The notes beneath the pieces were generated by a model that made no database searches, was not told the DNA's origin, and saw only the letters and a program-made list of their open reading frames with translations. From the IMG/VR virus record IMGVR_UViG_3300029448_000475, positions 1-22,784 of that record: 22,784 nucleotides of DNA; one strand, written 5' to 3'. Position 1 is the first letter of the stretch. Each line of letters begins with the position of its first letter. This document shows positions 1 through 6,086 of this stretch, piece by piece. This DNA comes from a virus. Position numbers and translations under genes: made by a program.

Positions 1-19
1 CAATAAGAGATTGTAACAT
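1..19 (-). CDS. start of a further gene, cut by the left edge
   Basis: An ATG at 19-17 shares one base with the TGA stop (21-19) of the EF-hand gene, giving a TGATG junction. Only the first six codons are visible (M-L-Q-S-L-I). The same style of stop/start overlap is used repeatedly in this window, so a real gene is likely to continue past the edge. An N-terminus of this kind recalls, from memory only, some small phage holins that begin MLQxLIGP. That is a guess from six residues and carries no weight alone. Confidence 0.45.
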
Positions 20-366
20 CAGTCAGTCTCCATTTGAATTGTTGTTTTCTTTGGCTCTGCTTTTGCGCTGTAAGCATTGAACCCCATGAAAGCTGCTACT
101 ACTCCTGACGCTGCAATGACGTATACACTTGCAATATCTGTGATAAGACTTGCTGCTTTGTCAAAACCTAGGACAGATGCTAGTAAAATTATAAATGGAT
201 AGATCAACATGCCCATCAAGGCGAAACCAGTAAACCGTCTTTCTGCGTTTCTTTTCAGATCTTTATCAATCATTTCTAATCTACGATCTTCAAGAGCAAG
301 CTTGTTCCATTCACTTGGCTCAATGACCCCATTGCCATTCTTGTCAGCTTTTTGAAATTCGTTCAT
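19..366 (-). CDS. EF-hand membrane protein, holin candidate
   Basis: A 115-residue protein with a canonical 12-residue EF-hand loop at residues 8-19 (DKNGNGVIEPSE). Calcium ligands are in place at loop positions 1 (D), 3 (N), 5 (N), 9 (E) and 12 (E), with the conserved Gly at 6 and Ile at 8. A charged linker (about 21-45) leads to two hydrophobic segments at about 47-67 and 74-98, followed by a short Lys-containing tail. Two transmembrane helices, small size and a position among other small membrane genes fit a holin or holin regulator. That role is inferred, since no lysis enzyme is visible here. Similar EF-hand proteins occur in marine phages as far as I recall. The start has a good ribosome site (AGGAG, six bases upstream). 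The first bases overlap the 43-residue gene upstream, and the stop overlaps the next start. Confidence 0.85.
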   Translation of the reverse strand: MNEFQKADKNGNGVIEPSEWNKLALEDRRLEMIDKDLKRNAERRFTGFALMGMLIYPFIILLASVLGFDKAASLITDIASVYVIAASGVVAAFMGFNAYSAKAEPKKTTIQMETD

Positions 367-475
367 TTATTCTCCTCGCAGTATGCAATGCTATAGAACG
401 CTCACGAGTGATAACGATCACTTTGCCATCCTGGTCATACAAGATGAAACGACCTTTCCATTCGCGTAAAATCAA
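344..475 (-). CDS. 43-residue protein with TTG start, unknown function
   Basis: This small frame has no ATG. A TTG at 475-473 overlaps the TGA of the 53-residue gene upstream (TTGA), the same geometry as the ATGA overlaps elsewhere in the window. The product looks like a real protein: it opens with ILREWKGRFILYDQDGKVIV and continues with alternating hydrophobic and charged residues and a basic helix near the end. The core GRFxLYDxDGKVIVITRER suggests a beta-hairpin followed by a helix. It runs 23 bases into the EF-hand gene in another frame. No Shine-Dalgarno site is obvious at the TTG, so initiation would depend on coupling to the upstream stop. Function is unknown. Confidence 0.6.
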   Translation of the reverse strand: MILREWKGRFILYDQDGKVIVITRERSIALHTARRINERISKS

Positions 476-633
476 AGCTCAATTTTAATACATACAACTT
501 TAGATTTATCGCTAGTTACCAATACTTTAGCGGCCTCTTTTGCTTCTTCGCAAACGACTTGTTTCGTGTAACTGCCAATGTGGTAGTGTTCAAATTCAGA
601 CGTTGCTAATTGTACCCAAAGAAGTACCCACAT
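472..633 (-). CDS. 53-residue protein with hydrophobic N-terminus and two cysteines
   Basis: The ATG at 633-631 directly abuts the TAG stop of the 26-residue gene (TAGATG). The 53-residue product begins MWVLLWVQLA, a short hydrophobic stretch, followed by a polar region with EFEHYHIGSY and a helix-forming segment. Cys28 and Cys48 could form a disulfide if the protein is exported, and the N-terminus could act as an anchor or uncleaved signal. It resembles a class of small phage proteins with W-rich starts and two Cys that I recall from alphaproteobacterial and marine phages, without known function. There is no convincing Shine-Dalgarno site, so translation is probably coupled. A spanin-like role is conceivable but unsupported. 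Confidence 0.65.
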   Translation of the reverse strand: MWVLLWVQLATSEFEHYHIGSYTKQVVCEEAKEAAKVLVTSDKSKVVCIKIEL

Positions 634-714
634 CTAAATACTTGCAACGAGCATATATAAAAATGGAGATGCTGCTACGCACATTAAAAACAAAACATGT
701 AATACTAATTTCAT
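634..714 (-). CDS. 26-residue hydrophobic micro-protein
   Basis: A very short frame whose ATG (714-712) shares one base with the TAA of the 158-residue gene (TAATG), as at five other junctions in this window. The product begins MKLVLHVLFLMCVAASPFLY and is almost wholly hydrophobic after Lys2. That fits a single membrane segment or a short signal-like peptide with a Cys at position 12. AGGGG lies about ten bases upstream of the start. The stop (TAG, 636-634) directly abuts the next ATG. Evidence for expression is the junction architecture and composition only. It could instead be a leader peptide that feeds ribosomes to the 53-residue gene. Confidence 0.5.
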   Translation of the reverse strand: MKLVLHVLFLMCVAASPFLYMLVASI

Positions 715-1190
715 TACCAGCGCCCCTGTTGCTTGCCCAAAAAGTAAAAAAACAAAAAGAGTAAGCCGCCACTTATAACAAAAATTACAGCTCCGATTGC
801 GAAATTAATGACAGCATCTACTTGAGCTTGCTTGCGGTATATCTCATCTTTTCGTTGCTTACGCATTTGTGCCTCGATGGCGAGCACCTCATCCCATTTT
901 TTCGGGCCGTAGTGCCAAGATATGTAATCTTTTAGCTCGCTCCTCATTCGAGCGAGTTCTTCTTTTTTTGACCATATAAGGATAGCTTGCTCTTCATCAG
1001 ATCCTTTGAAAGTCTTCTGCCACATCGGTGGATTTTTTTGACGCTCTTCTAGGTGATTTAAATCCGCACATGCTTTTCCCCAAGTTGCCAGAGACTGACC
1101 CATATCAGAAAGATCCTTGGCTGTGTCTAGACCAGCACGCAAAGTTTTGTACGCGCCAGCAGCGAGCATTGTAATACTAATAGGATCCAT
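714..1190 (-). CDS. 158-residue protein with C-terminal membrane anchor
   Basis: I do not recognise a characterised family. The N-terminal part (1-60) is a mildly hydrophobic, Ala/Gly-containing helix followed by mixed sequence. Residues about 63-125 are highly charged and should form long helices, probably a coiled coil (KKEELARMRSELKDY, then a basic run). Residues about 130-152 form a strong transmembrane segment, ending in the polar tail GKQQGRW. The arrangement suggests a tail-anchored inner-membrane protein. Proteins opening MDPIS with this layout are, as I recall, common hypothetical proteins in marine podoviruses near the lysis genes. A lysis or membrane-related role is inferred from position. 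The start is preceded by AAGG about nine to eleven bases upstream. The gap to the gene before it is 19 bases. Confidence 0.85.
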   Translation of the reverse strand: MDPISITMLAAGAYKTLRAGLDTAKDLSDMGQSLATWGKACADLNHLEERQKNPPMWQKTFKGSDEEQAILIWSKKEELARMRSELKDYISWHYGPKKWDEVLAIEAQMRKQRKDEIYRKQAQVDAVINFAIGAVIFVISGGLLFLFFYFLGKQQGRW

Positions 1191-2655: not shown

Positions 2656-4265
2656 TATACTAGACCTCCAAGGTAAGCGTTCATTTCATCACCACTCATG
2701 TTTGAGTTAACGAGGATCTTGGATGCGCTTATTGCTTTACCAATCTTACGCCCATTGTTTGTTGTTTGCAGAACACCAACGTCACTTACATAGTAAGTAG
2801 TACCTATGGCTAAACCTGATTGCCCTTCGTTAATACCACCATTAATAGTGATAGAGCCTGTAGCAGTATTAGAAATTGCTTCTGCTGCTACGCCAATATA
2901 GTTTGAAACTGTTCTGTTAGCAGTACCATCAACAGTAAACACAGTGACATATCCAATCTCACTGTTAGAAGAATCATCATATGCTATTACAACTCTTTTC
3001 GACCCAGAGTCATAAACTGTAGTATATTTACTTGTAGAGTTTGTATTAGGGCCAAAGCTAGCTTCTGTATTAAAACTTATAGAAGTACCGCTAACTGTTC
3101 CTATAATATACTTACGAACTCTTGTTCCACCAACAGTTTCTCTGTAAAATATTAAAGCTTTACCTACGTTTTCATCAAACACTACACCAATGTCAGAATC
3201 TATAGGATCAGTAGAAAAAATTACTTCTGACCCCACAGATACAGACGTACCGCTAACAGTTCCAACAACTGCATGACCTCCGTTATCAGTTTCAGCCCAT
3301 GTAAAAATCATCTTATCGTTTTTTGTATCGTAAACAGCCCTTCCGTAACTTGGGCTTTCACCTGATACAGCTGTATCTGGACTTATTCTATTAGGTGACC
3401 CGAATGAAACAGAAGTACCACTAATTGTTGCTATAACAGCATCAGTATGTTTAGAGGTTGCCGAAGCATCCTTATAATAAATACAGAATTTATCTGCTGT
3501 TGTTATGTAAGCTAATGATACAGTATTTACCTCACCATCAAATTCTGCTGCACTACCAAAACTAATACTGGTATTTGAAACAGTTCCGACTAGCGCTTTA
3601 CCTTTATTGGAATCTCCAGTATCTCTATATACAACTAAAACTTTTTGTGCTGTAGGGCTGTATTTAACTATATTGTTTACACTTTGATTTGAAGATGAAT
3701 AAACAACAGGAGTACCAAACGATATACTTGTAGAGCTTATGGTTCCGACTACGGCTGTTCCGTAATTACTATTACCTTCATCTTTGTAAACAATAACTAT
3801 TCTATTATTTGCAACGTCATGCGCTATACTACCATGTTTAACTTTAACACCAGCAGATTCAAAAACGGCAGTAGATCCAAATGTAACTGAGTTATTGCTA
3901 GGGTCTATTGTTCCAACTCTAGCACTACCATAAGCATTATTACTCTCATCTGCCCACGCAACAACAATTTTGTTATTTGTGCTATCATAGCCCACGCCAC
4001 CATCAAATTGCGTTGAGAAGTTTACTGCTGTTCCCTCAGAAAGACTAAAAGACTCTGGTGTAGCTACAGTAACAGTTCCGTTGCTGTTTAATATAACAAC
4101 ATCCCCATTAGATATTGCACCACTCGCTACAAAGTCTGCGCTTCCTCCACCGCCACCAACCCCAGCAGCAGCTAATGCAGTTACCGTTGTACTATCTACA
4201 CTCGCAATATTACTAAGCTGCCTAGCATTAGTAATTACGTCTGTGCCACCTACTTTAATCGCCAT
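2655..4265 (-). CDS. seven-repeat putative beta-propeller, receptor-binding protein
   Basis: A 536-residue protein in three parts. Residues 1-41 (MAIKVGGTDVITNARQLSNI, ending in a glycine run) are a typical attachment leader of marine phage fibre proteins. Residues about 85-448 hold seven repeats of about 50 residues. Each has a YDxxNNKIVVAW-like strand, a DxxNSxxG turn, a VGTIS strand, then TSISFG. Seven such four-strand units suggest a seven-bladed beta-propeller. Residues about 450-536 form a conserved-looking end domain (NYIGVAAEAI, ATGSITINGGINEGQSG, GTTYYVSDVG). No enzyme motif or sialidase Asp-box consensus is evident, so binding is more likely than hydrolysis. The start is preceded by AGGAGTA and lies 15 bases after the fibre gene's stop. 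Confidence 0.85.
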   Translation of the reverse strand: MAIKVGGTDVITNARQLSNIASVDSTTVTALAAAGVGGGGGSADFVASGAISNGDVVILNSNGTVTVATPESFSLSEGTAVNFSTQFDGGVGYDSTNNKIVVAWADESNNAYGSARVGTIDPSNNSVTFGSTAVFESAGVKVKHGSIAHDVANNRIVIVYKDEGNSNYGTAVVGTISSTSISFGTPVVYSSSNQSVNNIVKYSPTAQKVLVVYRDTGDSNKGKALVGTVSNTSISFGSAAEFDGEVNTVSLAYITTADKFCIYYKDASATSKHTDAVIATISGTSVSFGSPNRISPDTAVSGESPSYGRAVYDTKNDKMIFTWAETDNGGHAVVGTVSGTSVSVGSEVIFSTDPIDSDIGVVFDENVGKALIFYRETVGGTRVRKYIIGTVSGTSISFNTEASFGPNTNSTSKYTTVYDSGSKRVVIAYDDSSNSEIGYVTVFTVDGTANRTVSNYIGVAAEAISNTATGSITINGGINEGQSGLAIGTTYYVSDVGVLQTTNNGRKIGKAISASKILVNSNMSGDEMNAYLGGLV

Positions 4266-4280
4266 CTTCGGATACTCCTA

Positions 4281-6086
4281 CTAGCTTATTGTTGCATTTG
4301 TATTTACGTTGCCAACCACATCTAAGTTGCCAGATGCGTCCAGTTTCATTTTGTTTGTGCCACTAGCTGCAAAATATAAACTTCCACCAGTTTCGGTAAT
4401 TGTCCAATCGCCAAAATCTATAGTTGTTGCTCCAAGTGTTCCAGTAAGAGTGCCGCCACTAAGCGCAAGAAATCCAGACCCAGCCGTTACTCCAGCTTCC
4501 CAAGCAGAACCAGTGTAAACCTTTAGAGTTCCTGATGTTGTATTGTAAAATAAATCGCCTGTATCTAATGATGAAGTTGGATCGCTTGAGCCTGTTCTAT
4601 AAACTGCAAAGAAATCAGTTACTGTTGAAAGATTATTTGCTACTGTCGTTATTTGAGTTATAGACCCACCGCAATTATTAACGTTTGCTATAGACCCAGC
4701 TACGGTTCCTACATTATTTGATCCACCTAGATCACTTGCAACAGTATTAACATTTGCAATCCCACCACTAACGTTGCTCATTGCCGTGACATTTGCAGAT
4801 GTGCCAAGCACATTCATATCGTTAACAACATCGGCTGTTCCTAAGATAGCCATATCTGCAACGACATCAGCCGTACCCAAGATGCCCATGTCAGTGACAA
4901 CAGCGCTTACACCAAGCAATCCAATTTCCGTTGCTTTCCCAGCAGTAGCGGTTACATCGCTGCTTATTCCAGCTACGGTAGTTACGTTAGATGAAACCCC
5001 AGCAACCGTGTTAATGTTGCTTGCATTTGAATTAACAGCAGTTATTGCTGTTTGATCTGAGCTTGTTGGTGTTGTACGGAGCCAAGTAGTTGTACCTAGG
5101 TTGTAAACCATAAGCACATTATTGGTGCTATCGAAAAATAGCGCACCGTCGATCAAAGCATCACCATCGTTATCAACTGTAGGGTTGCCGCCTGACGTTG
5201 ATTTAGCGCCTAAGTACCTATCATCAAAGTTGTCAAAACTAGTTGCTGCTGAAGTAGCTGAACTTGCAGCTGCTGATGCGCTTGATGAGGCTTCACTTGC
5301 TTTTGTCGTTGCAGTGCTTGCACTTGATGCAGCACCTGTAGCAGAACTTGCCGCTGCTGTAGCCGAGCTTGCTGCTGCTGTCGCAGAACTCGCAGCTGCT
5401 GTTTGTGAAGTTGTTGCTGATGCAGCATCTACGATTAAATCATACTTCGCACTATTTGCATTTGTTGTAAGAGGCTGAGAACCAGAGCTAGTGTGATCTG
5501 CGTTAACAATGAAAATATTGTTAGTGCCTGTATCCTTTACAATGTCACGAGCAACATATGTAGTTGACGTTGCCCAATTACCTTTAAATGTGCCAAGCTC
5601 TTGAGCAATACTTAAATTACCGCTGGCATCAAAACTAAACACTTTGTTTGCTCGATCTGTGGCAGAGATTGTAAACTCAGAACCTGTTAGTGTGTTTGTA
5701 CGTGATGCCTTAATCGCACGACCAAGTTCTTCTTCATGTTTCTGTGACATGAACACAAGCTTGTCTAAAGCTTCTTCTAGGCTTTCCGCTGGAAACGGAT
5801 CATTAGCAACTAAATCTAGACCCTGAGTCAGTGATTGCTCACGTATGATAACCACCGTAACACCACTTGCCGGAGCTGATCCAAACACAACATTGCCACC
5901 TGATGCAGACCCTACTCCGCTAACAGTGTAATGTGTCGTGATTGTCTGCGTGGTTTCAGTTCCATCAGCTGCCCTGAGAATGACAGTGAGATCGGACTGA
6001 TCAAAGATTTTAAAGCTATAGGCAAATGTGGTTAGAGAACCATTACCACTATAGCTGACTTTGTTTGTGCTGCTAGATACTGTCAT
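4281..6086 (-). CDS. tail fibre protein with T7 gp17-like N-terminus
   Basis: A 601-residue trimeric-fibre type protein. Residues 1 to about 135 match the T7 gp17-like head of podovirus fibres that docks on the tail (KVSYSGNGSLTTFAYSFKIF, then the TQGLDL...NDPFPAESLEEALDKL region). Residues about 220-285 are Ala/Ser/Thr seven-residue repeats (AAASSAT), probably a triple coiled coil. A globular segment with DDRYLGAKS follows. Residues about 350-480 are low-complexity beta repeats of twelve residues (VVADMAILGTAD). The C-terminus (LSGGTLTGTLGATTIDFG to NTNATIS) is a strand-rich end domain. No enzymatic motif is visible, so receptor contact may be delegated to the next proteins. The start overlaps the previous stop as ATGA (6083-6086), and AAGGAAGG precedes it. 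Confidence 0.9.
   Translation of the reverse strand: MTVSSSTNKVSYSGNGSLTTFAYSFKIFDQSDLTVILRAADGTETTQTITTHYTVSGVGSASGGNVVFGSAPASGVTVVIIREQSLTQGLDLVANDPFPAESLEEALDKLVFMSQKHEEELGRAIKASRTNTLTGSEFTISATDRANKVFSFDASGNLSIAQELGTFKGNWATSTTYVARDIVKDTGTNNIFIVNADHTSSGSQPLTTNANSAKYDLIVDAASATTSQTAAASSATAAASSATAAASSATGAASSASTATTKASEASSSASAAASSATSAATSFDNFDDRYLGAKSTSGGNPTVDNDGDALIDGALFFDSTNNVLMVYNLGTTTWLRTTPTSSDQTAITAVNSNASNINTVAGVSSNVTTVAGISSDVTATAGKATEIGLLGVSAVVTDMGILGTADVVADMAILGTADVVNDMNVLGTSANVTAMSNVSGGIANVNTVASDLGGSNNVGTVAGSIANVNNCGGSITQITTVANNLSTVTDFFAVYRTGSSDPTSSLDTGDLFYNTTSGTLKVYTGSAWEAGVTAGSGFLALSGGTLTGTLGATTIDFGDWTITETGGSLYFAASGTNKMKLDASGNLDVVGNVNTNATIS
4801..4908 (-). repeat. 36-base tandem repeat in the fibre gene
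   Basis: Three diverged 36-base units (4801-4836, 4837-4872, 4873-4908) encode the twelve-residue repeat VVxDMxxLGTAD. A fourth, weaker unit follows at the higher coordinate side. The bases differ mostly at third positions while the amino acids are kept, so selection is on the protein, probably a repeated beta-structure in the fibre shaft. Confidence 0.75.
5338..5400 (-). repeat. 21-base tandem repeat in the fibre gene
   Basis: Three 21-base units (5338-5358, 5359-5379, 5380-5400) encode the seven-residue repeat AAASSAT. More degenerate copies lie on both sides, between about 5240 and 5430. The units differ at synonymous positions. The seven-residue period fits a coiled-coil stalk. Confidence 0.75.

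Follow-up and report, generated by a model that had tools for sequence, protein, structure and literature searches.

A stop codon and a start codon that share four bases form the commonest geometry of translational coupling (PMC12548453). Short overlaps favour reinitiation or coupling, and they are enriched among genes whose products belong to the same complex as subunits (PMC10666635, PMC12548453). The small phage gene pair described here, p53-p43, resembles other NTGA (−4) coupled pairs in that its stop and start share four bases. It differs from them in that the family keeps a weak GTG or TTG start and excludes ATG, uncoupled copies of p43 start with ATG, and the Shine-Dalgarno sequence is nearly absent. 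A second comparison is with the reinitiation-dependent lysis genes of the RNA phages fr, MS2 and GA, where a tiny downstream gene is read by ribosomes finishing the upstream gene, as would be the case for p43. In phage fr, a UUG start is required. A UUG start has also been reported for the lysis gene of phage M, which lies inside the replicase gene and not at the coat-gene stop (PMC3561173). Unlike these systems, the pair described here belongs to a double-stranded DNA phage, and p43 is basic and probably soluble rather than a membrane lysis peptide. The closest described relatives of p53 are found in roseophages. CRP-2 gp22, CRP-3 gp38, CRP-9 gp21, CRP-13 gp14 and CRP-345 gp22 match p53 in length, have both of its cysteines and are 31–37% identical to it, but they are encoded at other genome positions with no p43 behind them. 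The p43 domain occurs in CRP-7 gp66, directly after a homologue of the membrane-protein gene g158 discussed below, but with an ATG start and no p53 ahead of it.

The stretch of DNA that was analysed, referred to here as the window, is a viral fragment of 22.8 kb, from a T7-like marine phage whose portal, major capsid and terminase genes are all on the minus strand. The portal protein belongs to phrog_332 (3e-164), with its nearest matches in Pelagibacter podophages (58–60%), and the major capsid protein to PF19821 (1e-89). An earlier reading, made from the sequence alone, had described three short minus-strand frames as tiling a gap through TAATG, TAGATG and TTGA junctions; their coordinates, lengths and junctions are borne out. 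The gap begins behind g158 (714..1190, minus strand, as are all features below), which encodes a 158-aa protein with one C-terminal membrane span (phrog_32327) and lies directly upstream of p26 or p53 in nearly all relatives. A TAATG overlap (712..716) leads from g158 into p26, and p26-bearing relatives likewise have TAATG or TGATG. The p26 gene (634..714), an optional 81-bp cassette, encodes a 26-aa single-span membrane micropeptide. It meets p53 at a TAGATG junction (631..636), for which relatives show TAAATG or TAGATG. The p53 gene (472..633) encodes a 53-aa acidic mini-domain, and its stop codon overlaps the weak p43 start codon in the sequence TTGA (472..475). The p43 gene (344..475) encodes a 43-aa basic mini-domain; its start codon is TTG, not ATG, and it has almost no Shine-Dalgarno sequence. 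The end of p43 overlaps the next gene, p115 (19..366, with its start at 366), by 23 bases. p115 has its own strong Shine-Dalgarno sequence, sited within p43 (duplex −8.9).

What is the evidence that frames this short are genes? First, a comparable ORF chain was found in 0.14% of 5000 Markov-1 resamplings of the gap. Second, a test of selection across relatives, computed as pN/pS, found purifying selection in all three frames, with values of 0.19 for p26 (10 distinct sequences), 0.12–0.16 for p53 and 0.24–0.31 for p43; the two remaining frames gave about 0.9 to 3.5. Third, relatives of p53 and p43 are encoded on 85 and 279 IMG/VR stretches, respectively. For p53 and g158, 80 loci each were retrieved; since several loci share contigs, distinct sequences were counted where so stated. 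In diverse contigs, p53 lies directly behind g158 or p26 and p43 directly behind p53, and p43 is the next gene after p53 in most loci. Hence, the sequence-only claim that the products are real peptides is upheld, both by selection that acts in the stated frames only and by relatives in many IMG/VR marine phage contigs: p26, p53 and p43 are real, conserved genes under purifying selection. Searches of PHROGs and Pfam with single proteins and with all alignment members gave weak matches only. A tblastn search of isolate phages with the p43 consensus and with p26 returned no matches, a weak negative because the queries are very short and because CRP-7 gp66 is a p43 relative that was recognised by its context.

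The coupled form of p43, which overlaps p53 by four bases, keeps a weak start codon and avoids ATG. Across all loci there are 103 distinct coupled pairs, of which 90 start with GTG, 13 with TTG and none with ATG; clustering at 85% identity gives 36 clusters (30 GTG, 6 TTG, 0 ATG). The NTGA overlap is retained in every one of the 103. A scan for p43 yielded 57 distinct loci, with p53 upstream in all and an ATG start in none, whereas the five p43 sequences without an adjacent p53, which represent three lineages (CRP-7; L262/L279; L085/L086), all start with ATG. The A that would create an ATG in the coupled pairs is synonymous, because the base concerned is the third position of the last p53 codon, which mostly encodes Leu or Arg. 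Of 62 sequences, 47 have G here and 15 have T, and the tree shows 3 changes. By comparison, 19 other degenerate codons show 3–18 changes (median 13), and A is present in 18 of them. Among comparison genes of at least 120 aa at the same loci, 84 of 201 TGA stops are ATGA. Shine-Dalgarno pairing upstream of p43 has a median of −2.6, compared with −6.3 to −8.8 for its neighbours, and values at or below −5 are reached by 7% of p43 genes as against 76–90% for p53, p26 and p115; the window p53 has almost no Shine-Dalgarno sequence either (−0.2). In a distant clade, the TTG start of p43 lies inside p53 codons (at −20 in most members, −29 in some), so the p53 protein may dictate the weak start there. 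Taken together, the start pattern of p43 suggests that termination-reinitiation from a weak start has been selected for, and the p53-p43 overlap with its weak start looks like a tuned two-gene switch. In four loci (L088–L091), there is an in-frame GTG 18 bases ahead of the conserved p43 start, and ORF callers therefore over-extend p43.

The p26 gene behaves differently from this pair. The product has a maximum 19-residue hydropathy of 2.15 and one predicted transmembrane span, making it a convincing one-span membrane peptide. In a sister contig (L007), whose g158 protein is 96% and whose p53 is 100% identical to that of the window, the 81 bases of p26 are missing and p53 begins right at the stop of g158. 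The state of this site (p26, none or another gene) changed at least 11 times on the g158 tree. A DNA-pattern scan placed p26 in 41 stretches: before p53 in 26, before a gene for a DUF3799 PD-(D/E)XK nuclease in 7, immediately ahead of a gene for a cell wall hydrolase of the Hydrolase_2 family (SleB-type; PF07486, 7e-26) in 4 (L262, L279, L251 and L256), and elsewhere in 4. A constant tie of p26 to lysis genes was not found, given the seven contigs in which it precedes the nuclease. Of the contigs with p26 beside the nuclease or the hydrolase gene, six have p53 homologues too (1.9e-19 to 5.3e-19), and p43 homologues are present in two of the six (2.4e-10 and 6.2e-10); the genes lie no more than about 2.5 kb away and in a different order. 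The three families are thus found together or apart in other phage contigs and therefore travel between phages. Rather than a single fixed block, they comprise a near-constant pair, p53 and p43, and a p26 that close relatives may have or lack.

Both members of the pair are predicted to be soluble. For p53, AF2 was given an alignment from which isolate-phage rows had been left out, and the best model is beta-beta-alpha-beta with a pLDDT of 88, the other four of five models scoring 53–72. The protein is acidic (median pI 5.5). The sequence-only reading had noted a hydrophobic start and two cysteines; Cys28 and Cys48 are indeed invariant in 60 sequences, but the hydrophobic start is a beta strand in the AF2 model, and the best 19-residue hydropathy is only 0.67. 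Length variation among relatives maps to the predicted beta1-beta2 turn, which supports a hairpin over a signal peptide. The hydropathy and the AF2 model make a signal peptide or membrane anchor less likely. For p43, the AF2 model is beta-beta-beta-alpha with a pLDDT of 94.6, and the predicted domain is basic (median pI 10.3). Weak matches to DUF5678 (PF18929) were obtained for 15 of 53 p43 relatives (best 2.5e-4); the window p43 scored 12.5 bits, below the Pfam gathering threshold of 23.2, and nothing informative was found in the literature on DUF5678. Profile searches of the PDB with the p53 and p43 alignments gave nothing significant.

A second small two-cysteine protein, resembling p53, lies downstream of the endolysin gene in L007 (3744..3974; MIKFWTILWLTY...) and another in L274 (3390..3647), and there may be a larger two-cysteine superfamily in marine phages. 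In CRP-2 (L002) and CRP-345 (L006), p53 is followed directly by a 28-aa hydrophobic peptide, probably with one span, that overlaps the p53 stop by ATGA, so that here too p53 is paired with a membrane micropeptide. The sole p53 match in genome_contigs (L241, 2778..2933) is coupled to a GTG-start p43 on a contig labelled as a Euryarchaeota MAG, which is probably a misbinned phage contig.

Could p53 and p43 be a movable host-takeover or antitoxin-like pair, an inhibitor with a nucleic-acid-binding partner, that is unrelated to lysis? The mobility of the families suits this idea, since p53 and p26 recur in six contigs of a different type, two of which also have p43. The structural resemblances would suit it too, although all are at noise level: Foldseek/VIA matches of the p53 model include several small phage proteins, among them the inhibitors T7 Gp2 and AcrIC9, and the p43 model resembles the lambda Int arm domain (Z 4.5, rmsd 2.5–2.8, 43 aligned). 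However, no structural or sequence match is significant (for p43 and the lambda Int arm, the Foldseek E is 3.5 and the hhalign probability 4.7%), and in most phages the pair sits in the late operon. We regard this explanation as possible but on the unlikely side.

The genomic surroundings raise a different possibility. The gene after p53-p43 is p115 in 164 loci and a phrog_10198 membrane protein gene in 26, redundant contigs included. In L007, the same gene order continues with holin-like, spanin-like and endolysin (phrog_181, 5e-53) genes, and the L115 region ends in a different endolysin gene (phrog_465, 8e-50). The location had been called lysis-like from the sequence alone, and this description agrees with the spanin-like and endolysin genes that lie downstream in L007 and the endolysin gene downstream in L115. 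In the window, p115 joins one EF-hand (DKNGNGVIEPSEW; PF13202, 6.8e-6) to a two-span holin-like region (PF07332, 1.8e-3), and it could be a calcium-responsive holin. Further along L007, at about 4070..4529, an integrase-like start comes after a sequence like the 3' end of a tRNA, a combination that suggests a temperate phage with an attachment site; ARAGORN detected no complete tRNA in L007.

It had also been proposed from the sequence that all three products act on lysis timing or the envelope; on this reading they would be small membrane proteins by which the holin is tuned. The proposal is partly supported. Holin-like, spanin-like and endolysin genes follow downstream (L007, L115), p26 has one span and precedes the Hydrolase_2 gene in four contigs, and the 28-aa peptide follows p53 in CRP-2 and CRP-345. 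Nevertheless, p53 and p43 are predicted to be soluble, and p26 also precedes the DUF3799 nuclease gene. In addition, roseophage homologues of p53 lie before the thymidylate synthase gene or after the portal gene, so lysis is not the defining context of p53. Envelope or lysis-timing action is plausible for p26 only, and for all three proteins it is unlikely.

A frameshift fusion, with p43 as the C-terminal part of a joint p53-p43 product, would be compatible with the four-base overlap and the lack of an ATG start in the coupled form. It is highly improbable and was rejected, being contradicted by a relative frame that varies by clade (start at −4 versus −20), by a TGA two codons ahead of the TTG in the window p43 frame, by retention of the NTG in 103 of 103 coupled pairs and by uncoupled copies with their own ATG. 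No canonical slippery heptamer was seen on reading the sequence at the end of the window p53. Finally, although the frames are short and mostly without named homologues, the idea that they are chance ORFs is refuted by the pN/pS values and the relatives and has next to no probability.

The explanation we consider probable is that p26, p53 and p43 are accessory genes, with p53-p43 as a weak-start, translationally coupled pair and p26 as an optional membrane micropeptide. All three are genuine small genes, which would have been inserted into the late operon immediately ahead of the genes for lysis. Ribosomes that end p53 translation at the TGA would re-initiate on the overlapping GTG or TTG, such that p43 would not be produced unless p53 is translated, and then in a low and constant proportion. 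The two proteins would then be a working pair, probably a complex or an effector and its regulator, directed at a target of host or phage origin; a complex is suggested by the overlap and by the acidic and basic character of the partners. The optional p26 would most likely modulate the activity of the membrane or of lysis genes. Counting against a p53-p43 pair, some relatives have lost p43; they form two groups (L010; L035 and its relatives), in which the p53 stop is TAA instead of TGA. Moreover, p53 occurs without p43 in roseophages and p43 without an adjacent p53 in CRP-7, L262 and L085, so the two are not strictly interdependent. More tentatively, and with somewhat less than even confidence, we suggest that the three families are a movable micro-gene set in which selection keeps the coupled p43 start weak and removes ATG, so that the basic effector would be made only in a small, constant proportion to the acidic partner.

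What are the implications for marine phages? First, short genes with GTG or TTG starts, such as these, are readily missed or mis-started by gene callers, yet they are strongly conserved in marine phages. Second, three compact protein families are gained, for which a part in host takeover or in lysis can be tested. Third, the contrast between coupled p43 genes with GTG or TTG and uncoupled ones with ATG is a natural experiment on how start-codon strength relates to the ratio of coupled products. If the tentative reading is true, start-codon strength would be an evolutionarily tuned control of the stoichiometry of p43 to p53.
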